From the NCBI RefSeq assembly GCF_014844135.1, contig NZ_CP041403.1, forward strand, positions 1,302,001 to 1,366,000: 64,000 nt of DNA, written 5' to 3'. This DNA is from Arcobacter sp. FWKO B (GTDB lineage: Bacteria > Campylobacterota > Campylobacteria > Campylobacterales > Arcobacteraceae). Shown here in pieces: positions 2,642 through 54,127 of this stretch. Under the pieces are notes generated by a model that saw only the letters and a list, made by a program, of their open reading frames with translations, had not been told where the DNA came from and did not search any database. A program made the translations under genes and the position numbers. The first letter of the stretch is position 1. Each line of letters starts with the position of its first letter.

Positions 2642-3838
2642 ATGATAAAAAGATTCTTTATCGATGGAACGCTCAAACCAGTTATTGGTCTTGGTATCAC
2701 TTCAACAATAGGATATGGAACATTATTTTATTCATTTACTATAATGTCACTAGAGTTTGAGAATGAATTTGGATGGAGTAAAAGTTTTATTTTTGGTATT
2801 TTTTCATTGGGATTGTTATTAGGTGGTCTTATAAGTCCATTTATTGGGAAAAAGCTTGATAAATATGGTGCACAAGTTGTTATGAGTATAGGGTCGTTCT
2901 TAGCGGCATTGGGTATGTTGTTTATCTCTTTTGTTGAAACAAAATTTGGATTTATTTTATCATTATTATACATTGAGATAGTTGCAACATTTGTTCTTTA
3001 TGAAGCTGCTTTTGTTGCACTTTCTCAAATAGCAAAAGAAAAAGCAAGACTACCTATGGCTCAAATTACCCTTATTGCAGGATTTGCATCAACTATATTT
3101 TGGCCATTAATTACATTTTTATTAGAGATTATGAGTTGGCGAGATGTATATTTGGTTTTATCACTTTTGCATCTTTGTATTGCATTACCTTTGCATTTAT
3201 TTATGCTTAAAAATAGGACTTTAAAAAGTGGTGTAACAAATTATATTGATAGTAAGGGTGTTTTTCAACTTACACAAAAACAAAAAGATAAAGCCATAGT
3301 TCTACTAGCTATAACACTTTGTCTTATCGCAATACCAATTGCAGCAATTCAATTACATCTATTATCCGTATTACAATCATTTGGAATTGAAGCAATAATT
3401 GCAGTTGCATTAGGTGCTTTGATTGGACCATCTCAAGTTGGTGCAAGAGTTGTTGAAATGATTTTTTCTAATAAAACAACACCCATTCAGTCTGCAATAA
3501 TTTCAAATATATTAATATTCTTGAGCTTGATTAGTTTACTTCTTAGTGTTTATGAAATTTTGTTTGCAACACTTTTTGTTGTTTTATATGGAGCTGGACA
3601 AGGGTTGAATTATATTGCTAGAGGAAGTTTACCACTTTATATTTTAAGTGCTGATAGTTTTGGAAAAAATAGTGGAATCTTAAATTTATTTATAAAAATA
3701 ACAACAGCAATTTCTCCTTTTAGTGTTGCATTGTTATTGGATTTTTTTGGGAATATTGTAACAGTTGTTTTTTTGGTTATTGTAGTTATGTTATCATTTG
3801 TAAGTTTATTTTATTTAAAAAAGGTTTATCATGTTTGA
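2642..3838 (+). CDS. MFS transporter in the phn operon
   Basis: This 398-residue membrane protein has about twelve hydrophobic segments. The MFS signature between helices 2 and 3 is visible as GKKLDKYGAQVVMSIGS (about residues 70-86), and a polar loop near residues 188-215 separates the two halves. It begins directly after the phnN stop and overlaps phnP by 8 bp, so it is co-transcribed with the C-P lyase genes. Phosphonate uptake is usually by a PhnCDE ABC transporter, so an MFS protein here is unusual. It could import a phosphonate or export a catabolite, but neither is shown by the sequence. Only the family assignment is secure. Confidence 0.85.
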   Translation: MIKRFFIDGTLKPVIGLGITSTIGYGTLFYSFTIMSLEFENEFGWSKSFIFGIFSLGLLLGGLISPFIGKKLDKYGAQVVMSIGSFLAALGMLFISFVETKFGFILSLLYIEIVATFVLYEAAFVALSQIAKEKARLPMAQITLIAGFASTIFWPLITFLLEIMSWRDVYLVLSLLHLCIALPLHLFMLKNRTLKSGVTNYIDSKGVFQLTQKQKDKAIVLLAITLCLIAIPIAAIQLHLLSVLQSFGIEAIIAVALGALIGPSQVGARVVEMIFSNKTTPIQSAIISNILIFLSLISLLLSVYEILFATLFVVLYGAGQGLNYIARGSLPLYILSADSFGKNSGILNLFIKITTAISPFSVALLLDFFGNIVTVVFLVIVVMLSFVSLFYLKKVYHV

Positions 3839-4660: not shown

Positions 4661-5404
4661 ATGCAGTATAAATCGGTATTTATTTCTGATATTCATTTGG
4701 GGACAAGTGATGCTAAAGCAGAAAACTTTTTAGATTTTATCAAGGATTTAGAGTGTGAGAATCTATTCCTTGTTGGTGATATTATAGATGGTTGGGCTAT
4801 GAAGAGAAAACTTACTTGGTTGCAAAGTCACTCAGATGTTATACAAAAAGTATTAAGAAAAGCTCGTAAAGGTACAAAGGTTTTTTATGTTTTGGGCAAT
4901 CATGATGAGTTTATAAAACCTTTTTTGCCACTTCAGCTAGGGGATAATATTACTGTTGTTCAAGATTATTCCTATATTGGAGTAGATAAAAGAAAATATC
5001 TTGTCACCCATGGAGATATTTTTGATACTATTACGCTTACAAAAAAATGGCTTGCTCTTTTAGGTGATAGTGCATATATGTTTGTACTTAGAGTTAATAA
5101 GCCATTAAACAAACTTAGAAAACTGATTGGCTATCATAAATATTGGTCGCTTTCAAAATATCTCAAACAAAATGTGAAAAAGTCTATGATGTTTATTTGT
5201 GAATTTGAAGAAATTATGGTAAACTATGCCAAAGAATATCAGTATGATGGTGTTATATGTGGACACATACATTGTGCAGAAATAAAAGATATTCAAGGGG
5301 TTACTTACCTTAATTGTGGCGACTGGGTGGAAAGTTGTACTGCCCTTGTGGAAGATTTGGATGGGGATTGGAAAATTTTAGAACATTTGGTGATTAATGA
5401 ATAA
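4661..5404 (+). CDS. UDP-2,3-diacylglucosamine diphosphatase-like metallophosphoesterase
   Basis: This 247-residue calcineurin-type metallophosphoesterase shows every core motif in order: SDIHLG (residues 9-14), GDIIDGW (near 39), GNHDE (near 79), THGD (near 116) and GHIHCAEI (near 200). The insertion rich in basic residues around LNKLRKLIGYHKYW matches the LpxH-like (LpxH2) branch, which may hydrolyse UDP-2,3-diacylglucosamine to lipid X in lipid A synthesis. An AGAGG-like ribosome site precedes the ATG. The stop overlaps the start of the patatin gene by 8 bp, suggesting a two-gene lipid unit. Exact substrate within this family is inferred, not proven. Confidence 0.8.
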   Translation: MQYKSVFISDIHLGTSDAKAENFLDFIKDLECENLFLVGDIIDGWAMKRKLTWLQSHSDVIQKVLRKARKGTKVFYVLGNHDEFIKPFLPLQLGDNITVVQDYSYIGVDKRKYLVTHGDIFDTITLTKKWLALLGDSAYMFVLRVNKPLNKLRKLIGYHKYWSLSKYLKQNVKKSMMFICEFEEIMVNYAKEYQYDGVICGHIHCAEIKDIQGVTYLNCGDWVESCTALVEDLDGDWKILEHLVINE

Positions 5405-6134
5405 AGTAAATTTAGTTATATCTGGTGGTGGGGCTAGGGCTATTTATGCTCTGGGTGTTGTGCAGTGGTTACTAGAGCAACAAATCAAGATTGAACAAAT
5501 TAGTTGTGTAAGTGGTGGTAGTATTGTTGGGGCGATGTTAGCACAAAATCAAAAACCAACTGATATTTTAGCATCTTTAAAGAGTATAAAGTATAAAAAA
5601 GAAATCAAGCTAGTATTATCTAAAGGGCTATTTTCTCTTGATAGGTTTGCACCTATTTTAGATGAGTTATTGGAACACAAAACTATACAAGAATCAGTTA
5701 AACCACTTTTGATTTGGGCTATTAGTCTTGAAAGTGGCAAAAGCAACTATTTTAAAACAGCAAAAATAAGTGATGCTATTTTGGCTTCTTGTTCATTGTA
5801 TCCTATTTTTAGACCATATATGATTGATGGTAAATATTATCTTGATGGTGGTTTTGTGAACAACCTTCCAGCTGAGCCTTTTGTAGGGCAAGATAATAAA
5901 ATCTTAGGTATAAATCTTAATCCAAGACTTGATATCAATATAGATAAGTTAAGTATCAAAAGAGTCCTTTATACAATATTTTATGCGAATATGGACTGTA
6001 GAAAACATTTATGTGATATTTATCTTGAGCCTCAAGCAATATCTGCTTATGGGATTTTTGGTACAGATAAATTTGATGAGATATTTGAACTAGGGTATAA
6101 TGAGGCAAGAAACAGTAAGCTATGTGTTGAGTGA
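5397..6134 (+). CDS. patatin-like phospholipase
   Basis: This 245-residue patatin-family serine hydrolase has the oxyanion-hole glycines in VISGGGARAIYALG (residues 7-20). The nucleophile serine lies in CVSGGSIVGAML (about residues 38-49) and the catalytic aspartate in the DGG motif of YLDGGFVNNLP (near residue 150). The family includes lipid acyl hydrolases, so it probably deacylates a membrane lipid. No signal peptide or membrane segment is seen, so it should be cytoplasmic. It overlaps the metallophosphoesterase gene by 8 bp, hinting at joint envelope-lipid turnover. The natural substrate is unknown. Confidence 0.85.
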   Translation: MNKVNLVISGGGARAIYALGVVQWLLEQQIKIEQISCVSGGSIVGAMLAQNQKPTDILASLKSIKYKKEIKLVLSKGLFSLDRFAPILDELLEHKTIQESVKPLLIWAISLESGKSNYFKTAKISDAILASCSLYPIFRPYMIDGKYYLDGGFVNNLPAEPFVGQDNKILGINLNPRLDINIDKLSIKRVLYTIFYANMDCRKHLCDIYLEPQAISAYGIFGTDKFDEIFELGYNEARNSKLCVE

Positions 6135-6965: not shown

Positions 6966-6998
6966 ATTATATGTGAGTTTGGTTATAGTTTGGTTACA
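6966..6998 (-). promoter_or_regulatory. candidate Pho-box promoter for the DUF155 gene
   Basis: Reading the minus strand there is TGTAAC (6998-6993), 5 bp, TATAAC (6987-6982), then 10 bp and TATAAT (6971-6966). Two half-sites 11 bp apart ending 10 bp before the -10 is the classical layout of a PhoB-activated promoter. The ATG follows about 20 bp after the -10. The site lies back to back with a similar one for pstS. Confidence 0.65.
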
Positions 6999-7036
6999 AG
7001 ATAGAAAATAAAAATATAGTTTAAGTCCATATATGT

Positions 7037-7069
7037 TGTAACCATGGTGTAACTAATATTATTTATACT
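7037..7069 (+). promoter_or_regulatory. candidate Pho-box promoter of the pst operon
   Basis: Two perfect TGTAAC half-sites (7037-7042 and 7048-7053) are separated by 5 bp, giving an 11-bp repeat. They are followed after exactly 10 bp by a TATACT -10 at 7064-7069. There is no -35 element, as expected when a PhoB-type activator replaces it. The next gene is pstS, 38 bp further on, whose family is the standard target of such regulators. Confidence 0.72.
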
Positions 7070-7107: not shown

Positions 7108-8157
7108 ATGACAATGTTTAAAAAATCGGTATTATCTTTAAGTGCAGTAGTTGCTCTTGGTATGACAGCTAATGCAAATGATCAAATAAGAGTTGTTGGA
7201 TCAAGTACAGTATATCCTTTTACAAGCTATGTAGCTGAAGAATTTGGTGCAACAACAAAAAGTAAAACACCTATTATAGAATCAACTGGTACAGGTGGTG
7301 GTATGAAAATATTTTGTTCAGGAGCTGATTTAAATACTCCAAGTTTTACAAATGCTTCAAGACCTATAAAATCAAGTGAATACGAAGAGTGTAAAAAAAA
7401 TGGTGTTGATAACATCGTTGGTATGATGGTTGGATTTGACGGTATAGCTATAGCTCAGAGTAAATCAAATCCAAAAATGGATTTAAAATTAGAGCATGTT
7501 TTTTTAGCATTAGCTGAAGAAGTACCAAGTAAAGATGGTAAATCATTAGTAAAAAACCCTTATAAATTTTGGAGTGATATAGATTCATCTTTACCAAAAA
7601 GAGAAATCAGAGTAATTGGAGCTCCAACAACATCTGGTACAAGAGATGCTTTTGACGAAATGGTAATGGAAGTAGCTTCTAAGAAATTTGATGCATATGG
7701 TGACTTAAAAGGTAAATATAAAAAAACAAGAACAGATGGTGCATTTATCCCAGGTGGTGAAAATGATAATTTGATAGTTCAACAACTTACTCAAGATAAA
7801 GCAGCAGTTGGATATTTTGGATATAGTTTCCTAGAGGAAAATCACGACAAAATTCAAGGTGTAAGCTTAAATGGTGTATCTCCAACATTTGAAGATATTG
7901 CAAGTGCCAAATATCCAGTATCAAGAAGCCTTTATGTATATGCAAAAGGTAATCATTTAGGAAAAGTAAAAGGTATGGAACAATTTATGGATCTTTATAT
8001 GTCTGATATGATGATAGGGCAAAATGGTGTTCTTAAAAATATAGGACTTATTCCTATGCCAGCTAGTACTTTAAAAGAGGTTCAAAATGCTGTAAAAGCT
8101 AGAACACAATTAACAAAAGAAATGGTAGATAAGCATACTGTTTTACCTGTTAAATAA
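7108..8157 (+). CDS. pstS: periplasmic phosphate-binding protein PstS
   Basis: This is the substrate-binding protein of the high-affinity phosphate ABC transporter. It begins with a Sec signal peptide (basic MTMFKKS, hydrophobic core, cleavage likely after ANA near residue 23). The mature N-terminus IRVVGSSTVYPF carries the PstS phosphate-binding loop. STGTGGGMKIFC and the later APTTSGTRDAF hold further phosphate-contacting residues. The length of 349 residues is usual. The start chosen has GAGGAAG about 7 bp upstream; an alternative ATG lies 6 bp further in. The gene is first in pstSCAB-phoU and is preceded by a Pho-box-like promoter. Confidence 0.95.
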   Translation: MTMFKKSVLSLSAVVALGMTANANDQIRVVGSSTVYPFTSYVAEEFGATTKSKTPIIESTGTGGGMKIFCSGADLNTPSFTNASRPIKSSEYEECKKNGVDNIVGMMVGFDGIAIAQSKSNPKMDLKLEHVFLALAEEVPSKDGKSLVKNPYKFWSDIDSSLPKREIRVIGAPTTSGTRDAFDEMVMEVASKKFDAYGDLKGKYKKTRTDGAFIPGGENDNLIVQQLTQDKAAVGYFGYSFLEENHDKIQGVSLNGVSPTFEDIASAKYPVSRSLYVYAKGNHLGKVKGMEQFMDLYMSDMMIGQNGVLKNIGLIPMPASTLKEVQNAVKARTQLTKEMVDKHTVLPVK

Positions 8158-8185
8158 TTATTAATAAGATTAAAATATAGATTTT

Positions 8186-8209
8186 AGCCTCTTGTGAAAG
8201 CAAGAGGCT
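8186..8209 (+). terminator. pstS-pstC intercistronic hairpin
   Basis: AGCCTCTTG pairs perfectly with CAAGAGGCT (9 bp) around a 6-nt loop in the 94-bp gap after pstS. The downstream T run is weak. This is probably a leaky terminator or mRNA-stabilising hairpin that lets pstS be made in excess over the membrane genes. Confidence 0.6.
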
Positions 8210-8251
8210 TAGTCATTTTAAATAAAAAGAAGAAAAAAGGAAGGAAAAGTA

Positions 8252-9508
8252 ATGTCAAATGATACATTGTATTTGATATTTTTTGGTGGCTTGATCCCTT
8301 TAATATATATTGCATATATTTTAGGTAAAAACAGAGCATCAAATATAAGGGCAAATGGAATAAAAATGCATTCACAACCTGATCAATATGGTTGGTTTGT
8401 AGCTTTATATACAGGTTTACCTGTGATTATGCTTGCAGTTACTGGGGTGTTTTTATACCTTTTTGGGATAGAAGCGGTTCCACCACATATGCTTGTAGTT
8501 GCATCTTTAACTCTTGGTGCTATAAGCTTGCTTTTTTTGGTAAAAAACTTAAATGGTAAAACAAAAGCAAGGGATTTGATAGAGAGTTTTATAAAAGGTG
8601 TCCTTATATTTGCAGCTTTTGTATCTGTTCTTACAACATTTGGAATACTTTTTTCTATTATATTTGAAACTATACATTTCTTTCAAAGGGAGTCTTTATG
8701 GGGATTCTTGACAGGTACACAGTGGAATCCTGATGCTGCATTTTTAGAGGGTGCTGGAAGAGGGAGTGATCTAAACTCAGCTTCAAAATTTGGAGCAGTT
8801 CCTATTTTTGCTGGTACTTTTTATATTACTGCTATTGCTATGTGTGTAGCTATTCCTATAGGAGTGCTTAGTGCTATTTATTTATCAGAATATGCATCAC
8901 CAAAAGCAAGAAACAGAGTAAAACCAGCTTTAGAGATACTTGCAGGTATTCCTACAGTTGTATACGGTTTCTTTGCAGCGATTACAGTTGCTCCTTTGAT
9001 AGTAGAACTTTTTGGATTTTTTGGGCTTAGTGCATCTTTTAGAAGTGCTCTTGGTGCTGGTATTGTTATGGGGATAATGATAGTTCCGATTATCGCAAGT
9101 TTAAGTGATGATGTTATAAGTTCAGTTCCATCAAATATGAGAAATGGCTCTTTGGCACTTGGTATGAATAAAGCTGAAACTATAAAGTTCGTGGTACTTC
9201 CTTCAGCTATGCCAGGTATTATTGCTGCTGTTTTACTTGGAGTTAGTAGGGCTCTTGGTGAGACTATGATTGTTGTTATGGCAGCAAGTCTAAGACCAAA
9301 CTTATCTTGGAACTTCCTAGAAGATATGACGACCGTTACGGTTAAAATTGTTGAAGCGTTAGTTGGAGATCAGGCATTTGATAGTTCACTTACATTATCA
9401 GCTTTTGCACTTGGATTTGTATTGTTTGTGGTTACTCTTATTATCAATATTATATCAATATATATGATAAGAAAATTCCATGCAAAATACAAAGTATCAA
9501 ATCTTTAA
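8252..9508 (+). CDS. pstC: phosphate ABC transporter permease PstC
   Basis: This 418-residue inner-membrane permease of the Pst system has an extended N-terminus with three hydrophobic segments before the core domain. The binding-protein-dependent transport fold starts near FAGTFYITAIAMCVAIPIG, and the EAA-type loop contacting PstB is visible as SLALGMNKAETIKFVVLPSAMPGIIA (around residues 295-320). The sequence RALGETMIVVMA is characteristic of PstC. A GGAAGGAAAAG ribosome site precedes the ATG. It is followed after 6 bp by pstA. Confidence 0.93.
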   Translation: MSNDTLYLIFFGGLIPLIYIAYILGKNRASNIRANGIKMHSQPDQYGWFVALYTGLPVIMLAVTGVFLYLFGIEAVPPHMLVVASLTLGAISLLFLVKNLNGKTKARDLIESFIKGVLIFAAFVSVLTTFGILFSIIFETIHFFQRESLWGFLTGTQWNPDAAFLEGAGRGSDLNSASKFGAVPIFAGTFYITAIAMCVAIPIGVLSAIYLSEYASPKARNRVKPALEILAGIPTVVYGFFAAITVAPLIVELFGFFGLSASFRSALGAGIVMGIMIVPIIASLSDDVISSVPSNMRNGSLALGMNKAETIKFVVLPSAMPGIIAAVLLGVSRALGETMIVVMAASLRPNLSWNFLEDMTTVTVKIVEALVGDQAFDSSLTLSAFALGFVLFVVTLIINIISIYMIRKFHAKYKVSNL

Positions 9509-9514
9509 GGATAA

Positions 9515-10687
9515 ATGATGGAAAAAAACAATAACTATTTTCATATACCACAAATAAAAAAAAGAAACCAAAAGGCAAAAAGATTTCAAATACTTGCAAC
9601 TTCAGCTATTGTTGTAGCTATGTCGTTTTTGGCATTTTTCTTATTTGATATTATCTCTAAAGGGTATCCAGCTTTTAAACAATCTTATGTGAAGATTGAG
9701 ATTAGTATAGATGAAGAAACAGCATCAAATCCATATGGATTGCTTGATCGTGAAATGACACAAATAGTGAGTCGTGCATGGCTTAGGACTCTTCCACAAG
9801 ATATAGAAAAAAATCCTCACTGGATAGGTACAACTCAGACTTTTTGGGCATTGACTGGTGCGGAGGTTGATCAGTATATAAAAGGTAAGCCAAATAGAGT
9901 AAGAGATAATGTAAAAGCAAAAGTAGATCACCTATTAGAAAAAGGGGAAATTGAATCAAGATTTAATATCATATTCTTTTTTACAGGAGATTCTAAAATA
10001 CCAGAAAATGCAGGATTTTATTCAGCAATGATAGGTTCAGTTCTAACTATGCTCGTAACTATGGCATTAGCAGTTCCTATAGGAATAATGACTGCTATTT
10101 ATCTTGAGGAGTTTGCTCCTGATAATAAGTTTACACAGTTTATTGAAGTAAATATAAACAACCTTGCAGCAATCCCATCTATTCTTTTTGGTTTGCTAGG
10201 ACTTGCTATATTTATCAACTTCTTTGGACTTCCAAGGAGTTCTGCTCTTGTTGGGGGGATGACACTAGCATTGATGTCTTTGCCTATTATTATAGTAAGC
10301 TCAAAGGCAGCTTTAAAAGCAGTCCCAGAGAGTATTAGACAAGCTGGATATGGGCTAGGACTTACAAAATGGCAAATAACAAGAGACCATGTTCTGCCAA
10401 TAGCAATGCCAGGGATGCTAACAGGTTCTATCATAGCCCTTGCTCAAGCAATAGGTGAGACCGCACCACTTATTATAGTTGGTATGATTGCCTTTGTTCC
10501 TGATGCTCCATCAAGTATTATGAGTGCAGCAACAGTTATGCCAGCACAGATTTATACATGGTCAGGTATGCCAGAACTTGCATATATAGAAAAAACAGCA
10601 GCAGCTATTATAGTGCTTCTAACGGTATTATTATCACTTAATACAATAGCTATTATTTTAAGAAAAAAATTCACAAAAAGATTTTAA
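9515..10687 (+). CDS. pstA: phosphate ABC transporter permease PstA
   Basis: This is the second Pst permease, with 390 residues. One membrane segment near residues 27-50 is followed by a hydrophilic insertion of about 110 residues. The core domain then begins near GFYSAMIGSVLTMLVTMALAVPIG. The EAA-like loop is visible in GYGLGLTKWQITRDHVLPIAMPGML, and AQAIGETAPLIIVG is typical of PstA. The insertion makes it longer than E. coli PstA; similar long forms exist in other bacteria. ATG codons at 9515 and 9518 are both possible starts, and AAGG overlaps the pstC stop. Confidence 0.93.
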   Translation: MMEKNNNYFHIPQIKKRNQKAKRFQILATSAIVVAMSFLAFFLFDIISKGYPAFKQSYVKIEISIDEETASNPYGLLDREMTQIVSRAWLRTLPQDIEKNPHWIGTTQTFWALTGAEVDQYIKGKPNRVRDNVKAKVDHLLEKGEIESRFNIIFFFTGDSKIPENAGFYSAMIGSVLTMLVTMALAVPIGIMTAIYLEEFAPDNKFTQFIEVNINNLAAIPSILFGLLGLAIFINFFGLPRSSALVGGMTLALMSLPIIIVSSKAALKAVPESIRQAGYGLGLTKWQITRDHVLPIAMPGMLTGSIIALAQAIGETAPLIIVGMIAFVPDAPSSIMSAATVMPAQIYTWSGMPELAYIEKTAAAIIVLLTVLLSLNTIAIILRKKFTKRF

Positions 10688-10696
10688 GGGATATAC

Positions 10697-11461
10697 ATGG
10701 AAACAAAAGCAAAAATAATATCAAGAGATTTAAAACTATGGTATGGAAAGAATCAAGCGTTAAATGGGATAAACTTAGATATTTATGAAAATAAAATTAC
10801 AGCGTTTATTGGACCATCTGGATGTGGAAAATCAACATATCTAAGATGTTTAAACAGAATGAATGACCTTATTCCAATAGCAAGAATTGAAGGTAAGATA
10901 GAAATAGATGGGCATGATATTTATGACCCAGAAATAGATGTGGTAGCTGTTAGAAAAAGAATAGGGATGGTATTTCAACAACCAAATCCATTCCCAAAAT
11001 CTATCTATGAAAATGTATCTTACGCACCTTTGATGCATGATATTGTAAAAAAAGGGACTGATTGTGATGAACTAGTAGAAACTTCACTTAGAAGTGCAGG
11101 ACTTTGGGAAGAAGTAAAAGACAAACTAAAAAGCCCTGGAACTGCAATAAGTGGTGGACAACAGCAAAGACTTTGTATAGCAAGAGCAATTGCCGTTCAA
11201 CCTGATGTTATACTTATGGATGAGCCTACAAGTGCATTAGACCCTATTAGTACACAAACGATAGAAAACCTAATGGTAGAACTTAAAGAAAAGTACACAA
11301 TAGTTGTCGTTACTCACAATATGCAACAAGCTGCTAGGGTGGCTGATTATACAGCATTTTTCCACTTAGGAGATTTGATAGAGTTTAACGAAACGGAAAA
11401 AATATTTGTAAATCCTGCAAATAAAAAAACAGAAGATTATATTACGGGAAGATTTGGTTAA
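10697..11461 (+). CDS. pstB: phosphate ABC transporter ATPase PstB
   Basis: This 254-residue ABC ATPase powers phosphate import. Walker A is GPSGCGKST (residues 39-47), followed by [12 protein letters not shown], a PstB hallmark. The Q-loop lies in [10 protein letters not shown], the signature in [14 protein letters not shown], Walker B in [13 protein letters not shown] and the H-loop histidine in VVTHNMQQA. All are intact. The gene sits 9 bp after pstA and 48 bp before phoU, the standard order. Confidence 0.97.
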
Positions 11462-11468
11462 TTTATCT

Positions 11469-11496
11469 AAAATCTAAAAAGTAAAATCTAAAAAGT
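11469..11496 (+). repeat. tandem 14-bp repeat before phoU
   Basis: AAAATCTAAAAAGT occurs twice in perfect tandem in the 48-bp spacer before phoU. A third identical copy stands at 19661-19674, in the leader of carA. The repeat is AT-rich, so slippage is the simplest origin. Confidence 0.7.
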
Positions 11497-11509
11497 AAAA
11501 GGAAAGAAG

Positions 11510-12181
11510 ATGTTAAAAAAAGAAGAAGAAAAATTAAATCAGATAAAGAATGCTGTAGTTGAGTTAAATATACTGGCATTAGAAACTACAAAAGATGTAA
11601 TAGGATGCTTAAATGGCAATAATATAGAGTGCTTAAAAGATATAAAAATATCAGCAAAAAAAGCTCATTCAAAGAGTGTTGAGATAGATAATATGATAGT
11701 TACAGCTTTTGCATTGTATCATCCTGAAGCAAAAGATTTAAGAGAGATGCTTTCATATCTTAAAATAACAAATGAATTTGCAAGAATTATTGACAATATA
11801 AGAACTTTTCTAAAAAAATTTACTGCAAATTATACAAAAGATATTGAAAAAGATCAAATTTTAGAATATACTACACCTATGGTAAAGTCATGCTATGAGT
11901 CACTATTGGCTATCAATGAAATGATTGCTTTAGAAGATGATTATGAAGCTATAGAGAAATTGTATCAAAGAATTTCTATAGAAGAATCAAAAACAGATGA
12001 TTTATATGCAATGATAGAAAAAAATATTTTAAATGCGATGAATATGAATACAGAGCTATCTTTAGAATATTTCAATATTTTAAGTGCTTTAAGAAGAATA
12101 GAGAGATTTGCAGATAGAACTTTAAGTATTGCATCGATTTTGATGTTTGCAAAAACAGGTAAAGAGTTGGAACAACTTTAA
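11510..12181 (+). CDS. phoU: phosphate signalling protein PhoU
   Basis: PhoU links the Pst transporter to the PhoR-type sensor kinase and keeps the Pho response off when phosphate is plentiful. The 223-residue, almost all-helical protein has two related three-helix bundles. Acidic metal-binding patches of the family occur around DNMIVTAFA and in the second half around ESKTDDLY. ERFADRTLSIA near the C-terminus is typical. It follows pstB, and the two-component genes follow after 83 bp. A GGAAAGAAG ribosome site lies just before the ATG. Confidence 0.88.
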   Translation: MLKKEEEKLNQIKNAVVELNILALETTKDVIGCLNGNNIECLKDIKISAKKAHSKSVEIDNMIVTAFALYHPEAKDLREMLSYLKITNEFARIIDNIRTFLKKFTANYTKDIEKDQILEYTTPMVKSCYESLLAINEMIALEDDYEAIEKLYQRISIEESKTDDLYAMIEKNILNAMNMNTELSLEYFNILSALRRIERFADRTLSIASILMFAKTGKELEQL

Positions 12182-12264
12182 TTTAGTAATTGGTAATTAG
12201 TTATTAGTAAGAACTTATTTTTGATAAACTACTGTACTAATATACCAATAAACAAAGGTTTACA

Positions 12265-12933
12265 ATGAGCAAAACAATTTTAATGGTTGAAGACGAAGAA
12301 GATATTTTAGAACTTGTCGAATACACCTTAAGTAAAATAGGATATGAGGTTATTGGTTGTTTGGATACAAAAAATGTTCAAGCAATTTTAGATGAAGAAA
12401 AAATAGATTTAATATTAATGGATAGAAATCTCCCTGGTGTAGATGGAGCAAATTTTATAGAACTACTTAGGGCAAAAGGGTATAACACCCCAGTTATTTA
12501 TCTAACAGCAAAAACAGCTCAAAGTGATATATTAGAAGGTTTTGAAAAAGGTGGTGATGATTATATCACAAAGCCTTTTGATACTGATGAGTTGCAAGCT
12601 AGAGTTAAAGCTGTAATAAAAAGAAGTTCAAAAGAAGCAGTTATTATCAAAGCAAGGGATATAGTATACAATTTTGATAGTAAAAAATTTAAAATTGATG
12701 ATAAAGATATTGACTTAACTCACCTTGAGCATGACTTATTATTGGAGTTTATTAAAAACAAAGATATACTTCTTAGTCGAGAACAACTACTTGAAAATGT
12801 TTGGAAAGATTCCTATGAAAAACAGTTAAAGACTGTAAATGTTGCTATAAAAAGATTAAAAGAAAAAATAGATCCAAACGGAGAAAAAGAGTATATAAAA
12901 GCAGTTCGTGGAGAAGGATACATCTTTTGCTAA
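12265..12933 (+). CDS. phoB: PhoB-like OmpR-family response regulator
   Basis: This 222-residue response regulator has the acidic pocket EDEED (residues 9-13), the phospho-acceptor aspartate D53 in LMDRNLPG, T81 and K103 in TKPF. Residues 125-222 form an OmpR/PhoB winged helix with the terminal VRGEGYIFC. Position directly after pstSCAB-phoU and before a sensor kinase makes it the probable phosphate regulator (the PhoB role, called PhosR in Campylobacter). It is the best candidate to bind the TGTAAC repeats in front of pstS, the DUF155 gene and the ornithine-lipid gene. Function is inferred from context. Confidence 0.85.
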   Translation: MSKTILMVEDEEDILELVEYTLSKIGYEVIGCLDTKNVQAILDEEKIDLILMDRNLPGVDGANFIELLRAKGYNTPVIYLTAKTAQSDILEGFEKGGDDYITKPFDTDELQARVKAVIKRSSKEAVIIKARDIVYNFDSKKFKIDDKDIDLTHLEHDLLLEFIKNKDILLSREQLLENVWKDSYEKQLKTVNVAIKRLKEKIDPNGEKEYIKAVRGEGYIFC

Positions 12934-14306
12934 AGATTCATCAGTTATTTTTTAGAAAGTTTATCATTCTTTTTTGTCTTATAGCAGTTATATGGGGTGT
13001 TGTAGTATATTTTTGGCTAAGAGATATTTATATAGACCAAACTAAAAAGAATTTATCTCAAAATATTGATTTATTTACCATATATATTGAAAAATCAAGT
13101 GATTTGGAAACTTTTTCTAAAAAATTTAAAGACAAATTAAATCTTAGATTAACGATTTTAAAAGAAGATGGCACAGTTATTGTTGAAAGTGATAAAAGTA
13201 AAGAGTTATTAGAAAATCATATAAACAGAGAAGAGATTATTCAAGCACGAAATTTTGGGATGGGTGAGAGTATAAGATACTCAACAAGTGTAAATAAAGA
13301 CTTATTATATATTGCAAAAAAAATAGAAGTAAATAATGATATTTACTATATTAGGATGGCTGATGATATAGTAAAAATAAAAAGTGATTTTACAGCTCTA
13401 TCAATAAAAGCAAGTATCATATTTGCACTTTTTTTGGTGTTTGCTTTTTTTATAACTTATCAAATAAGTACAAAAGTGAAAGATGAAACAGACAAAGTTT
13501 TGGAATATTTAAAAAAATTGACAAAAAAAGAGGATATAGATTTTGAAATATCTACATATTCTCAAGAGTTTAATAAAATAACAAAATTGCTTCAAAGTGT
13601 AGCAACTATTTTAGCAAAGAAAGAGAAAAAAGCAACTAAAAAGACTGCAAAACTAAGACTTGCAAACCAGCAAAAAGATGACATAATATCTGCAATTTCT
13701 CATGAATTTAAAAATCCAATAGCAGTCATAGTAGGATATGCAAAAACAATAAAAGATGACCCAACGCTAAATAAAGAGATATTAAATAAATTTTTGACAA
13801 AAATCTATAACAATGCTAATAAAATGTCAAATATAATAGATAGGTTAAGGCTCTCTATAAAGCTTGAAGAGGGGAAACAAAACTTAATGTACAGTGAGTT
13901 TTCACTTAAAAATATGGTACAAGAAATCATTAACGATTTAAAAGAAAATTATAAAAATAGAGAGATAATACTAAGTGGAGATGATATTACTATAAAAGCT
14001 GATGAAATGCTTCTTGGTATAGCAATAAAAAATCTAATAGAAAATGGTTTGAAGTATTCTGATAATGATGTAAAAATAGTTTTAAACAAAAATAAAATAG
14101 ATATAATAGATAATGGCATAGGTATATCAAAAGAAAATGTTAGCAAAATTACTACAAAATACTATAGAGTAAGTAATGATGGATGGAATAACTCTCTTGG
14201 ACTTGGTCTTAGTATTGTAAAAAATATTGTAAATTTACATGGGTTTACACTCGAACTTGAATCATTAGAAGATGAAGGTTCAACTTTTAGTATTGTTTTT
14301 AATTAA
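12927..14306 (+). CDS. phoR: PhoR-like sensor histidine kinase
   Basis: This 459-residue membrane histidine kinase has transmembrane helices near residues 13-30 and 161-180 around a periplasmic domain of about 130 residues. The phospho-acceptor is H259 in ISHEFKNPIAVIVGYAK. ATPase boxes follow: N-box IKNLIENGLKYS, G1 IIDNGIGIS and G2 LGLGLSIVKNIV. The start is a TTG that overlaps the regulator's stop codon (TTGCTAA) with AGAAGGA upstream; there is no nearby ATG, so translational coupling is likely. It should phosphorylate the adjacent PhoB-like protein. A large periplasmic domain differs from E. coli PhoR and resembles PhosS. Confidence 0.82.
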   Translation: MLKIHQLFFRKFIILFCLIAVIWGVVVYFWLRDIYIDQTKKNLSQNIDLFTIYIEKSSDLETFSKKFKDKLNLRLTILKEDGTVIVESDKSKELLENHINREEIIQARNFGMGESIRYSTSVNKDLLYIAKKIEVNNDIYYIRMADDIVKIKSDFTALSIKASIIFALFLVFAFFITYQISTKVKDETDKVLEYLKKLTKKEDIDFEISTYSQEFNKITKLLQSVATILAKKEKKATKKTAKLRLANQQKDDIISAISHEFKNPIAVIVGYAKTIKDDPTLNKEILNKFLTKIYNNANKMSNIIDRLRLSIKLEEGKQNLMYSEFSLKNMVQEIINDLKENYKNREIILSGDDITIKADEMLLGIAIKNLIENGLKYSDNDVKIVLNKNKIDIIDNGIGISKENVSKITTKYYRVSNDGWNNSLGLGLSIVKNIVNLHGFTLELESLEDEGSTFSIVFN

Positions 14307-14444: not shown

Positions 14445-14541
14445 ATGAGTGAGGTTATTGCAGCAGATTATTTTAACAAATATAGACTCTTTTAAAAGAA
14501 CATTAACAGTTGATTTAGAAATTATTTCAAATGATGGATAA
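14445..14541 (+). other. small ORF, possibly frameshifted, coupled to the methyltransferase
   Basis: An ATG at 14445, with AAGGA about 11 bp upstream, opens a 16-codon frame (MSEVIAADYFNKYRLF) that stops at UAA right after CTC TTT. Skipping one T at TTTTAA continues into an open frame (KRTLTVDLEIISNDG) that ends at 14541, overlapping the methyltransferase start. The joined product would be 31 residues. It could be a broken gene remnant, a +1 frameshift leader or chance. I recognise no homologue. Confidence 0.25.
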
Positions 14542-15715
14542 AAAATTTAAAGTATTAGACCTCTTTGCTGGAGTTGGTGGATTGAGTTATGGTTTTGCTC
14601 ATGATGATAGCTTTGAAATAGTCGCTGCAAATGAAATTTTACCTGATATGGCAAAGGCGTACTCATTAAACCATCCAACAGTCAAAGTATATAATTGCGA
14701 TATAAAAGATTTTGGACTTAAAAATCTTAATAGCGACTTAGGCATTAGCAAAGGTGATATTGATTTAATAGTTGGAGGCCCTCCTTGTCAGGCATTTTCA
14801 ACAGTTGGCAAAAGGCTTATTGATGACCCCAGAGGAAAGCTTTTTCAAGAGTATTATAGGGTATTAAAAGAATTAAATCCTAATGTATTTTTGTTTGAAA
14901 ATGTTAAAGGGCTTTTGTCGATGCAAAAAGGAGAGCTATTTAAAACAATTTTAGATCTTTTTGAATCTTTAGGTTATAAAGTACAGTACAAAGTATTAAA
15001 CTCAGCTGATTATGGTGTTCCTCAAATAAGAGAAAGAGTAATTATAATCGGCACAAAATTAGGGCAACAATTTGAATATCCAAAACCAACACATTGTAAT
15101 ATGGACAATGATACGATCTTTAGTCAAGATTTAAAGCCATATATAACACTAGCAGATGCAATAAGTGATTTGCCATTTATTAAAAGTAACGAAGAAAGTT
15201 TTGAGTATAAGAGTGAGCCAAATAACGAATTTCAAAGATTAATGAGAAAAAATGCACCTAGAAAATTAATGGATCATAATGCTCCAAAAAACAATGAAAA
15301 ATTAGTGAAACTTATGGAATGCTTACCTGATGGAGGAACACCAGAAGATTTACCTATAGAATTACGACCAACTAGTGGATTTAAAAATACATATTGTAGA
15401 CTATGGTGGGAGCGACCAGCTACAACTATTACAAGAAATTTTAGTACACCATCATCTTCAAGGTGTATTCATCCTAAAGCACCTAGACCACTAACAACAA
15501 GAGAAGGAGCAAGGATACAATGTTTCCCAGATGAGTATATTTTTTATGGTTCTAGGAGTTCTAAAAACCTACAAATAGGAAATGCTGTACCTACTTTTTT
15601 GTCAATAGCATTGAAAGATTCAATTAAACAACACTTGAAAACAGAAGATAAAGTGATAGAAAATGATTATAACATGCAAGAGAATAATAGACTTCAAATT
15701 AAAGAAGCAAGTTAG
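14531..15715 (+). CDS. C5-cytosine DNA methyltransferase (Dcm/HpaII-like)
   Basis: This 394-residue enzyme transfers a methyl group from S-adenosylmethionine to cytosine C5 in DNA. All the hallmark motifs are present in order: motif I DLFAGVGGLSYGF (10-22), motif IV GGPPCQAFS with catalytic C86, motif VI FENVKG, motif VIII QIRERVIIIG, and motif IX/X RPATTITRNF and QIGNAVPTFLS. The target-recognition region between VIII and IX gives no readable site. No restriction endonuclease gene flanks it; neighbours are a phosphate kinase and an aminotransferase. It therefore looks like a solo methyltransferase, for regulation or protection, or the relic of a lost system. Confidence 0.93.
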   Translation: MMDKKFKVLDLFAGVGGLSYGFAHDDSFEIVAANEILPDMAKAYSLNHPTVKVYNCDIKDFGLKNLNSDLGISKGDIDLIVGGPPCQAFSTVGKRLIDDPRGKLFQEYYRVLKELNPNVFLFENVKGLLSMQKGELFKTILDLFESLGYKVQYKVLNSADYGVPQIRERVIIIGTKLGQQFEYPKPTHCNMDNDTIFSQDLKPYITLADAISDLPFIKSNEESFEYKSEPNNEFQRLMRKNAPRKLMDHNAPKNNEKLVKLMECLPDGGTPEDLPIELRPTSGFKNTYCRLWWERPATTITRNFSTPSSSRCIHPKAPRPLTTREGARIQCFPDEYIFYGSRSSKNLQIGNAVPTFLSIALKDSIKQHLKTEDKVIENDYNMQENNRLQIKEAS

Positions 15716-51624: not shown

Positions 51625-52377
51625 ATGCAAAGTGGCGATTTTTTAGCTTATGCCCCTATAACTAAAGAGATAATAAATTCAGCAAACTTACTTAAGAGTC
51701 TAAAAATCAATGTTCTTATTCGTGGTGATATAGGGACTGGTAAAAAAACATTGGCGAAAACTATTTCACAAAGCAGTTTGATAATAGATGCAAAAGAGTT
51801 ACAAAGTGAGATATCAGATAATGCATTTTCTACAGATTTTGATACAGTAATAATAGATCATATAGAAAATATTACAAATATTGATATGATTTTAAATTGG
51901 ATGGCAAATTGTGGACTTAGAATTATAGCTACTACAAAACAAAATGAATTAAGTCCAAAATTGGAAGATTTTTTTGCAATAAAAATATTTATACCCCCTT
52001 TGGATGAGAGAAAAGAAGATATAAAGCCTTTAGCAAATAAGTTTGCACAAGAAGCAGCACATGTACTTGGAGATGGGAAAACAAAACCTCAAAAACTTAT
52101 CATAAATACGGTGCAAAATGGCTATTCCCTAAGACAGTCTGTATTTTTTAGTTACCTTTTTGAGTCTATTAATGAGGGTGAAATAATGATGCTTTTGGAA
52201 AAGCTTATTTATGAAAGATTAGAAGGGGAAAATAATTATAGGGACTTTTTATATCTTTTTGAAACACCTTTATTAAGAGCTGCACAAAAAAAATATAAAA
52301 GTCAACTTCAGATGGCAAAACATCTTGGTCTAAATAGAGTAACATTAAGAAAAAAACTAGAACTTAATGATGTTTAA
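51625..52377 (+). CDS. NtrC-like regulator lacking the sigma-54 contact loop
   Basis: This 250-residue protein looks like a reduced enhancer-binding protein. A Walker A variant GDIGTGKKT lies near residues 33-41, Walker B appears as TVIIDHIE and the end of the AAA domain as FFAIKIFIPPLDERKEDIKPLANKF. A Fis-type helix-turn-helix closes the C-terminus (QMAKHLGLNRVTLRKKLELND). The segment between Walker A and B is shortened and no GAFTGA motif is visible. It probably does not activate sigma-54 polymerase, and may act as a simple DNA-binding regulator. It is divergent from amt-glnB and ends 4 bp over the olsF end. Confidence 0.75.
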   Translation: MQSGDFLAYAPITKEIINSANLLKSLKINVLIRGDIGTGKKTLAKTISQSSLIIDAKELQSEISDNAFSTDFDTVIIDHIENITNIDMILNWMANCGLRIIATTKQNELSPKLEDFFAIKIFIPPLDERKEDIKPLANKFAQEAAHVLGDGKTKPQKLIINTVQNGYSLRQSVFFSYLFESINEGEIMMLLEKLIYERLEGENNYRDFLYLFETPLLRAAQKKYKSQLQMAKHLGLNRVTLRKKLELNDV

Positions 52378-54059
52378 TTATTAATATATCTATTTTTTTG
52401 TGGTGTTTTGATTTTTGATATATCGACTAATATAAAACCATCTACACAGTTGGAAAAGTTTGTATCGGTGTTAAAGCCTAAAAATTTTACACCATCATCT
52501 TCACATAAATCACTATATTGTTTATATAGGGTAGGTACAACAAAGCCTACATCATTTAGTGCAGATTTTAGTATCTTAAAATCAAGTTTTTTATCATTGT
52601 ATCCAAATAAATAATTTACTTCATTTAAGTTATTTGAATATTGATATGGGTTTTTTGGTGTTACAAGATTATTTGAATCTTTAAAATAGTTGCTGTAGTA
52701 GTTTATAATTAAATCTTTTGCAATAGAAGGATAAGTACTACTTAGGCTTACTGCACCAAACATATATTTGATATTTCTATGATTTTTGAGATATGCACCA
52801 ATACCATACCATAAATAATCAAGTGCTCTAGTTCCCCAGTATTTTGGCTGTACAAAGCTTCTTCCAAGTTCTATGGAGTCTTGCAAATAGTTTGCAAACC
52901 CAGAATTATAATTAAATAAAGATGATGTATAAAAGCCATCTTCTCCATATAGTGACATTATATGATTACTATTTCCTATACGATATGAACCAACTATTTC
53001 AAGCTCTTTTTCATCCCACAATATTATGTGACTATAATATTTATCATATTTGTCAGTATCTCGCTTTTTATTTACCCCTTCACCTACTTTTCTAAATGAT
53101 AGTTCTCTTAATCTTCCTATTTCTTTAAGTATAGTAGAGTCATCTTTATATGAGTAAAGATATATTTTTTTACCATCACTAGTAGAACCTAAGACTTGAG
53201 AAGATTGAAGTTCTTCTAGTATTGCTTGCCTACTTTGAGGGTGGGCTATTGCTTTTTGGGTTGTTAAAATAGGTTTTAATTTATTTATTGAATATAGATG
53301 TTTTTTAAATAAAACAATAAGCTCTTTTTTCTTTATATGTTGAGGAATATTTTCATAAGGGATTATTTCACCTATAGTAATAGTGGCTTTTTTGTTTTGT
53401 TTATTAAACATCTCATTGGACAAAAGTAAGGTGGATATTCTTTTGTTTATAGCTGAGACGGTATAAAAAAACCAAGAGTTTTTTGCTTTTATATGAATTG
53501 GAAGAATAGGTGATTTTGAGTTAATTGCAAATGTAAGAAAACCTTTATACCATTTTGTATCTTTGATCCCATCTAATCTTGCTCTGCTTACCTCTCCACT
53601 AGGAAATATGATTACGGCTTTGCCTTGTTTGAGCTCATCTACTATTGCTTTTATATCTTGTTTGATTTGTATTTGATTGAAGTTATTTACTTTTAAAAGT
53701 AGTGGATCAAGTTGCGTAAATTGGGTTAAAAAATCATTTGCTACAATTTTTACATCTTTTCTTATACTCCCTATAATTTTAAGAAGCAATAATCCATCAA
53801 GTGCTCCAAGGGGGTGATTTGCTATTATTACAACACTCCCAGATGTAGGGATATTTTGTATTTGATTTTGTGATAGGATAATATCAAAATTAAAGTAATC
53901 CAAAATAGCCTCTACAAATTCAAATCCCATTAAGTGAGAGTTTTCTTCTAAAAAGGCATTTATTTTATCTTCGTGAATTATTTTTTGTAAAAACTTTATA
54001 ATACTTTGGTTGCCTAATGTTGGGTATTTATTTTGTATTTCTCTTTGAATACTTATCAT
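52374..54059 (-). CDS. olsF: bifunctional ornithine-lipid synthase (OlsF type)
   Basis: This 561-residue fusion has an N-terminal PlsC-type O-acyltransferase domain. Its HxxxxD motif is NHPLGALD (near residue 80), followed by FPSGEVSR. The C-terminal GNAT-like N-acyltransferase domain resembles OlsB, with GRLRELSFRKVGEG, YDKYYSHIILWDEKELEIVGSYRIG and ELGRSFVQPKYWG. That order is OlsF, which makes ornithine or related amino-acid lipids in one protein. Such phosphorus-free lipids replace phospholipids when phosphate is scarce. A Pho-box-like promoter lies upstream, consistent with that role. The head-group amino acid cannot be read from sequence. Confidence 0.85.
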   Translation of the reverse strand: MISIQREIQNKYPTLGNQSIIKFLQKIIHEDKINAFLEENSHLMGFEFVEAILDYFNFDIILSQNQIQNIPTSGSVVIIANHPLGALDGLLLLKIIGSIRKDVKIVANDFLTQFTQLDPLLLKVNNFNQIQIKQDIKAIVDELKQGKAVIIFPSGEVSRARLDGIKDTKWYKGFLTFAINSKSPILPIHIKAKNSWFFYTVSAINKRISTLLLSNEMFNKQNKKATITIGEIIPYENIPQHIKKKELIVLFKKHLYSINKLKPILTTQKAIAHPQSRQAILEELQSSQVLGSTSDGKKIYLYSYKDDSTILKEIGRLRELSFRKVGEGVNKKRDTDKYDKYYSHIILWDEKELEIVGSYRIGNSNHIMSLYGEDGFYTSSLFNYNSGFANYLQDSIELGRSFVQPKYWGTRALDYLWYGIGAYLKNHRNIKYMFGAVSLSSTYPSIAKDLIINYYSNYFKDSNNLVTPKNPYQYSNNLNEVNYLFGYNDKKLDFKILKSALNDVGFVVPTLYKQYSDLCEDDGVKFLGFNTDTNFSNCVDGFILVDISKIKTPQKNRYINN

Positions 54060-54085: not shown

Positions 54086-54127
54086 ATCTTAATATGATAT
54101 GGTTACAACAAGATTACTTATGTTACA
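54086..54127 (-). promoter_or_regulatory. candidate Pho-box promoter of olsF
   Basis: On the minus strand, TGTAAC (54107-54102) is preceded 11 bp upstream by AGTAAT (54118-54113, 4 of 6 matches). Exactly 10 bp after it comes TAAGAT (54091-54086) as a -10. This repeats the half-site, 5 bp, half-site, 10 bp, -10 layout seen at pstS and the DUF155 gene. Another TGTAAC lies at 54127-54122. Confidence 0.55.

Follow-up and report, generated by a model that had tools for sequence, protein, structure and literature searches.

When does a bacterium call on its DUF155 protein? The family spans bacteria to human mitochondria, and mutations in RMND1, its human member, cause disease. In the 64,000-nucleotide stretch of the Arcobacter sp. 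FWKO B genome analyzed here (the window), a DUF155 gene lies divergent from pstS, which encodes a phosphate-binding protein. The original prediction held that a pair of opposed Pho-box promoters between the two genes (6966-7069) makes DUF155 a phosphate-starvation gene, and that DUF155 proteins have no known bacterial role; none turned up in the literature searched, which covered few subscription journals. From promoter sequences in this genome and its relatives, we place the probability that DUF155 is under Pho-type phosphate-starvation control together with pstS at roughly 0.8, which would add it to a known regulon type, the Pho regulon. Because the switch is shared with the pst operon and recurs on the DUF155 genes of relatives, the cell probably produces DUF155 once phosphate is exhausted. 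We infer both the identity of the regulator and the low-phosphate induction of DUF155.

The two promoters follow one layout (Table 1). Each carries two direct repeats of 11-bp period, TGTAAC-N5-T(A/G)TAAC, that replace a -35 element at a fixed 10 bp from a -10 (TATAAT or TATACT), as expected of a Pho box. The spacings of 5 and 10 bp are identical in the two opposed copies, as had been predicted, and the gap between the copies is 38 bp. The DUF155-facing box has its first base 51 bp before the start codon. Pattern searches across the 2,243,170-base genome located TGTAAC-N5-TRTAAC-N10-TATAMT exactly twice, once toward pstS and once toward DUF155 in this same region, and the reversed control of the 33-base design occurred nowhere in that genome. 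A 33-column matrix trained on 25 pstS promoters from other genomes (the full matrix) produced no match of at least 18 bits in 1.28 Mb of random sequence from a dinucleotide model. Half-sites alone, at up to two mismatches, were not clearly enriched genome-wide (232 versus 200 for a control pattern); hence, the complete design including the -10 carries the signal.

Is this element the Pho box of the family? All 30 Arcobacteraceae loci sampled have WGTAACCAAAWTGTAAY-N10-TAWAMT about 60 bp upstream of pstS, with the spacing to the -10 unchanged, and the pstS box is also present in 9/10 loci of genus g39, which belongs to another family. When 396 genes were ranked with a core matrix, for which pstS and olsF promoters alone served as the training set, the top was made up almost entirely of known phosphate genes (pstS, pstC, response regulator, phoX, phoH, ppk2, olsF, phnF) and DUF155; Pfam matches identified phoX (PF05787), phoH (PF02562) and ppk2 (PF03976). 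The same element therefore precedes accepted phosphate genes: pstS, pstC, phoX, phoH, ppk2 and the regulator gene. By sequence, the TGTAAC direct-repeat design is the Pho box of Arcobacteraceae, and the match to PhoB-type promoters that the original prediction drew is borne out at the family's pstS promoters and at other phosphate genes alike.

The design has close counterparts. Campylobacter jejuni PhosS/PhosR and E. coli PhoB likewise use direct repeats of 11-bp period upstream of a -10, before pstS and phoX, and a PhoB/PhoR-like pair encoded within the pst locus is a further likeness to known Pho regulons. The half-sites differ, TGTAAC or TGTAAT in Arcobacteraceae versus CTGTCAT in E. coli. 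In C. jejuni the box appears to be built on GTTTC, again with an 11-bp period. PhosR controls pstS and phoX in C. jejuni (PMC3197622; PMC4415409, citing Woesten 2006). For Arcobacter, the literature searched yielded nothing relevant on Pho boxes, and no report of DUF155 as a PhosR or PhoB target. Another regulator of the OmpR family, answering to a different signal, might instead use the boxes: the neighboring regulator does not reach the PhoB equivalog cut-off, and OmpR-family sites are often direct repeats of similar period. The boxed genes across the family are, however, phosphate genes (pstS, pstC, phoX, phoH, ppk2, the regulator, olsF and plcP), and every genome examined has the regulator gene within its pst locus, so we regard this alternative as very improbable.

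The element recurs in front of DUF155 across relatives. At a threshold of 10 bits, the core matrix recovered 15/21 Arcobacteraceae DUF155 genes and 2/326 control genes, a set from which recognized phosphate genes had been excluded (Fisher p ~1e-19, a value that counts genomes as independent although those within a genus are not, and that is therefore too small and overstates the case). Sixteen of the 21 DUF155 genes exceeded the 99th percentile of the controls, and 150 column-permuted matrices gave a mean of 0.28 and a maximum of 4. We counted the box-bearing genes as three lineages, spread over two diverged subfamilies and several genera: the window's genus (G000, G103), genus g8 (G044, G045, G046, G050), and a distant subfamily in genus g2. 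Members of this distant subfamily have 26-31% identity to the window protein, with homology indicated by an hhalign probability of 100%, and bear a box about 62 bp upstream in 9/10 loci.

Could the minus-strand box be merely an auxiliary operator of pstS, or an accident of position, with DUF155 itself outside phosphate control? Both boxes do lie close together in one intergenic region, and the sister genome G101 brings no extra information, since its DUF155-pstS intergenic region is identical to the window's (160/160 bases); for this reason we rejected G101 as independent support. The minus-strand copy nevertheless has its own correctly placed -10, oriented to DUF155, and no second divergent box was found within 260 bp at the other sampled pstS promoters, G101 apart. 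Moreover, relatives whose DUF155 gene is not beside pstS, and in some genomes far from it, carry boxes placed and oriented in the same way; in the nearest relative with DUF155 located elsewhere (G103), a weaker box of 11.5 bits is kept. The box is thus no by-product of adjacency, and we consider an auxiliary operator or an accident of position quite improbable.

Besides the inflated Fisher statistic and the uninformative sister genome, several observations weigh against phosphate control of DUF155. The first half-site is degenerate in G103, G046 and G050, and no box was found at DUF155 in G061, G081, G102, G049 or one of the distant g2 set. Outside Arcobacteraceae, most DUF155 genes are boxless: in g39, 4/16 reach 10 bits and the others keep at most one half-site and a -10, and Sulfurimonas-type and gammaproteobacterial copies show no convincing box and have unrelated neighbors. 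The boxless exceptions within the family make sense in part, since DUF155 lies directly behind mgtE in G061 and G081, and pstS and olsF were undetected in the G102 genome. A few Sulfurimonas-type scores above 10 bits (L038, L039) were treated as chance, as the region is not conserved in their relatives. E. coli-type Pho boxes near consensus were absent in front of gammaproteobacterial DUF155 genes; a perfect one in L058 was set aside, being 0.5 kb downstream of the gene.

With the box missing from mgtE operons and from Sulfurimonas-type and gammaproteobacterial copies, phosphate control appears lineage-specific and not general to DUF155, a trait of Arcobacteraceae and possibly of some relatives. 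The scan of relatives that had been proposed as a check on the prediction found the pattern conserved in this family at both pstS and DUF155. Phosphate control of DUF155 is supported there, in two subfamilies, and fails for the mgtE-operon copies and most copies outside. Judged from the promoters, it would also extend further than originally claimed, to several genera and to DUF155 genes away from pstS. Two side observations concern the gene's surroundings: in G102 (L139:1302-3126), DUF155 is divergent from a protoglobin-PsiE fusion gene, and tandem duplicated DUF155 genes occur in two other Campylobacterota genomes (L231, in G272; G123:C56).

How would the switch operate? The predicted PhoB/PhoR-like pair 5 kb away is present, at 12265-14306. 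Under low phosphate, the PhoR-like kinase would phosphorylate the PhoB/PhosR-like regulator, which would then bind the 11-bp-period repeats, stand in for a -35 at a distance of 10 bp from each downstream -10, and activate pstSCAB on one side and DUF155 on the opposite side. The family's regulon also takes in olsF, the PlcP-like/patatin operon, phoX, phoH and ppk2, as well as the regulator gene in some genomes. DUF155 would in that case be made alongside phosphate uptake and the swap of phospholipids for phosphorus-free lipids.

The lipid side of this regulon is visible in the window itself. A third Pho box precedes olsF, whose product joins an OlsA-like acyltransferase (PF19576 at 19-258) to an OlsB-like GNAT domain (PF13444 at 317-417), and the olsF box is present in nearly all 30 loci of relatives sampled. 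Phosphorus-free lipid synthesis is therefore probably a core Pho-regulon function in Arcobacteraceae. Near DUF155, the metallophosphoesterase at 4661-5404 is a calcineurin-like phosphoesterase distinct from LpxH: it falls below the LpxH cut-offs, and a second, more distant homologue encoded elsewhere in the genome is probably LpxH itself. Its box is weak in the window (8.2 bits) and stronger in the sister genome G101 (13.3 bits). PlcP is Pho-controlled and often encoded near lipid glycosyltransferases, a pattern seen in orthologues, although the window copy has a patatin-like neighbor; among the PlcP-like/patatin orthologues, which are organized as an operon, nearly all of the 30 loci (L182-L211) show a box at -39. 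We conclude that the enzyme is probably a PlcP-type phospholipase C. In several of the loci (L201, L204, L206, L208), a GT4 glycosyltransferase gene with its own Pho box is divergent from plcP and is a candidate glycolipid synthase.

Such an arrangement resembles known lipid remodeling by PlcP/Agt and OlsF, sharing a Pho-boxed metallophosphoesterase, at times divergent from a boxed GT4 gene, and a boxed OlsF-type synthase. Unlike in PlcP/Agt systems, plcP here has a patatin gene as its partner, and in the Arcobacter sp. FWKO B genome it lies next to DUF155 and pstS; no description of such an arrangement for Arcobacteraceae was found in the literature searched. PlcP and glycolipid synthesis show a Pho-linked arrangement of this kind in marine bacteria (PMC4796936), and Vibrio cholerae forms ornithine lipids under low phosphate (PMC12186959). 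Gene content and boxes together point to lipid replacement under low phosphate in Arcobacteraceae. This analysis thereby sketches the Pho regulon of the family, membrane-lipid replacement (olsF, plcP-patatin) included.

What might DUF155 contribute? The window protein matches PF02582 over profile positions 1-173 of 174 (E 2.2e-25; 90.2 bits versus a cut-off of 27). An AlphaFold model (30 sequences; mean predicted local distance difference test score 84) comprises an alpha/beta domain at the N-terminus, long helices, and a single hydrophobic helix at the C-terminus, from which we predict a single-pass inner-membrane protein with a CorA-shaped cytosolic domain. CorA, ZntB and MRS2 chains head the Foldseek and VIA-align lists (Foldseek E 7e-3; VIA-align Z up to 9.8, root-mean-square deviation 3.7, 151 aligned), with unrelated helical chains scoring nearly as high. 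DUF155 resembles these channels in its predicted overall shape, an alpha/beta N-terminus followed by long helices and a C-terminal membrane helix, but differs from CorA in having one membrane helix instead of two and in lacking GMN: neither a second membrane helix nor this motif was found in 30 aligned DUF155 proteins. A Pfam scan of the window protein returned DUF155 only and no CorA (PF01544) match, and the DUF155 profile matched no PDB chain. Profile-profile comparison of DUF155 with CorA by hhalign gave a probability of 0.1-0.5%, like unrelated controls, and thus no hint of shared ancestry. Homology to CorA is thus unsupported by profiles, and we keep CorA as a structural likeness.

The mitochondrial proteins RMND1, RMD1 and RRL likewise combine a DUF155 domain with a transmembrane helix behind it at the C-terminus, as described for Arabidopsis RRL (PMC4588890). 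They are tied to respiratory-chain and translation defects, whereas the Arcobacteraceae proteins are bacterial and predicted to be phosphate-regulated. No link between RMND1 and CorA was found in the literature searched.

The neighbors of DUF155 vary within a recurring set: pstS and the PlcP-like/patatin pair (G000, G101), olsF and phoX (G044), olsF (G048), a PiT transporter (G046, G050), and mgtE (G061, G081). Pairs of mgtE and DUF155 genes occur in G061, G081 and G186, three genomes that represent two families; together with the CorA-like shape, these pairs weakly suggest a link to Mg2+. Because boxes occur in two subfamilies and the neighbors include olsF, plcP-patatin, PiT, pst and the mgtE pairs, DUF155 might be a dedicated low-phosphate membrane protein that tunes Mg2+ or the inner membrane during phospholipid replacement. 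We put this forward tentatively and think it unlikely as it stands; our leading, speculative guess at the protein's role, at a similarly low probability, is that it acts on the inner membrane or on that membrane's Mg2+ status in phosphate starvation. Alternatively, DUF155 may be co-induced and yet do a general job, such as the membrane or translation support proposed for RMND1. DUF155 genes outside Arcobacteraceae, mostly boxless, adjoin unrelated genes (IMPDH, a YgjP-type peptidase, amidases) and some family members sit in mgtE operons, as a general job would have it; the recurring phosphate and lipid neighbors and the boxes in two subfamilies within Arcobacteraceae run counter to it, and we hold it to be somewhat unlikely. 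A dedicated low-phosphate role, if true, would give the family to which human RMND1 belongs its first bacterial role open to testing. The phosphate-starvation promoter recurring in two DUF155 subfamilies supplies a condition under which to seek a phenotype.

Table 1. Promoter elements and genes of the window discussed in the text.
Feature	Position	Strand	Basis
Pho box and -10 facing DUF155	6966..6998	minus	TGTAAC CAAAC TATAAC CAAACTCACA TATAAT; 21.8 bits full matrix, 18.5 bits core matrix
Pho box and -10 facing pstS	7037..7069	plus	TGTAAC CATGG TGTAAC TAATATTATT TATACT; 26.8 bits full matrix
DUF155 gene, 267 aa, predicted C-terminal transmembrane helix	6144..6947	minus	PF02582
pstS, phosphate-binding protein	7108..8157	plus	PF12849, TIGR02136
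pstC, pstA, pstB, phoU	8252..12181	plus	Open reading frames and order; synteny in relatives
OmpR/PhoB-type response regulator, presumed binder of the boxes	12265..12933	plus	Best NCBIfam match PhoB, 184 bits, below equivalog cut-off
PhoR-like sensor kinase	12927..14306	plus	Profile matches
Third Pho box of the window, before olsF	54086..54118	minus	17.5 bits
OlsF-type ornithine-lipid synthase, PlsC-like acyltransferase fused to GNAT acyltransferase	52374..54059	minus	PF19576, PF13444
LpxH-like metallophosphoesterase, PlcP-type candidate	4661..5404	plus	PF00149, below LpxH cut-offs; weak box at -51
Patatin-like phospholipase, conserved operon partner of 4661-5404	5397..6134	plus	PF01734; pair kept in relatives

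Elsewhere in the chromosome, the full matrix found no box of at least 9 bits in the phn operon region (1284001-1304000) except before phoH, and phnF has a weak core-matrix match only (12.0). The weak box before the PIN-PhoH gene (G000:C1:1289869-1289901; L137:5869-5901) is kept in sequence and position in G103 (L138). Within the phosphonate (phn) cluster, a major facilitator superfamily gene (2642-3838, plus strand) resembles the arsenite exporter ArsK, at 309 bits against a cut-off of 400. A strong Pho-box-like element of 23.4 bits (G000:C1:1254399-1254431; L094) lies between a PiT-like phosphate transporter gene and rplM-rpsI; it is oriented toward these ribosomal genes and may act on either side.

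The pst locus (7108-14306) is a mosaic. Its pstSCA genes are nearest to genus g18 (71-77%), and phoU, the regulator and the kinase are nearest to the congener G103 (77-88%), which suggests that the transporter genes were acquired by transfer. Just beyond the locus, a DNA cytosine methyltransferase gene (14531-15715, plus strand) stands between the sensor kinase and aminotransferase genes; these are directly adjacent in G101 and G103, and the methyltransferase gene thus looks like a recent insertion. In other genera, a gene for an EAL-GGDEF protein lies next to the pst operon or within it and is surrounded by Pho boxes (L142:7454-9190, L146:7035-8786), a placement that possibly links phosphate to cyclic-di-GMP.
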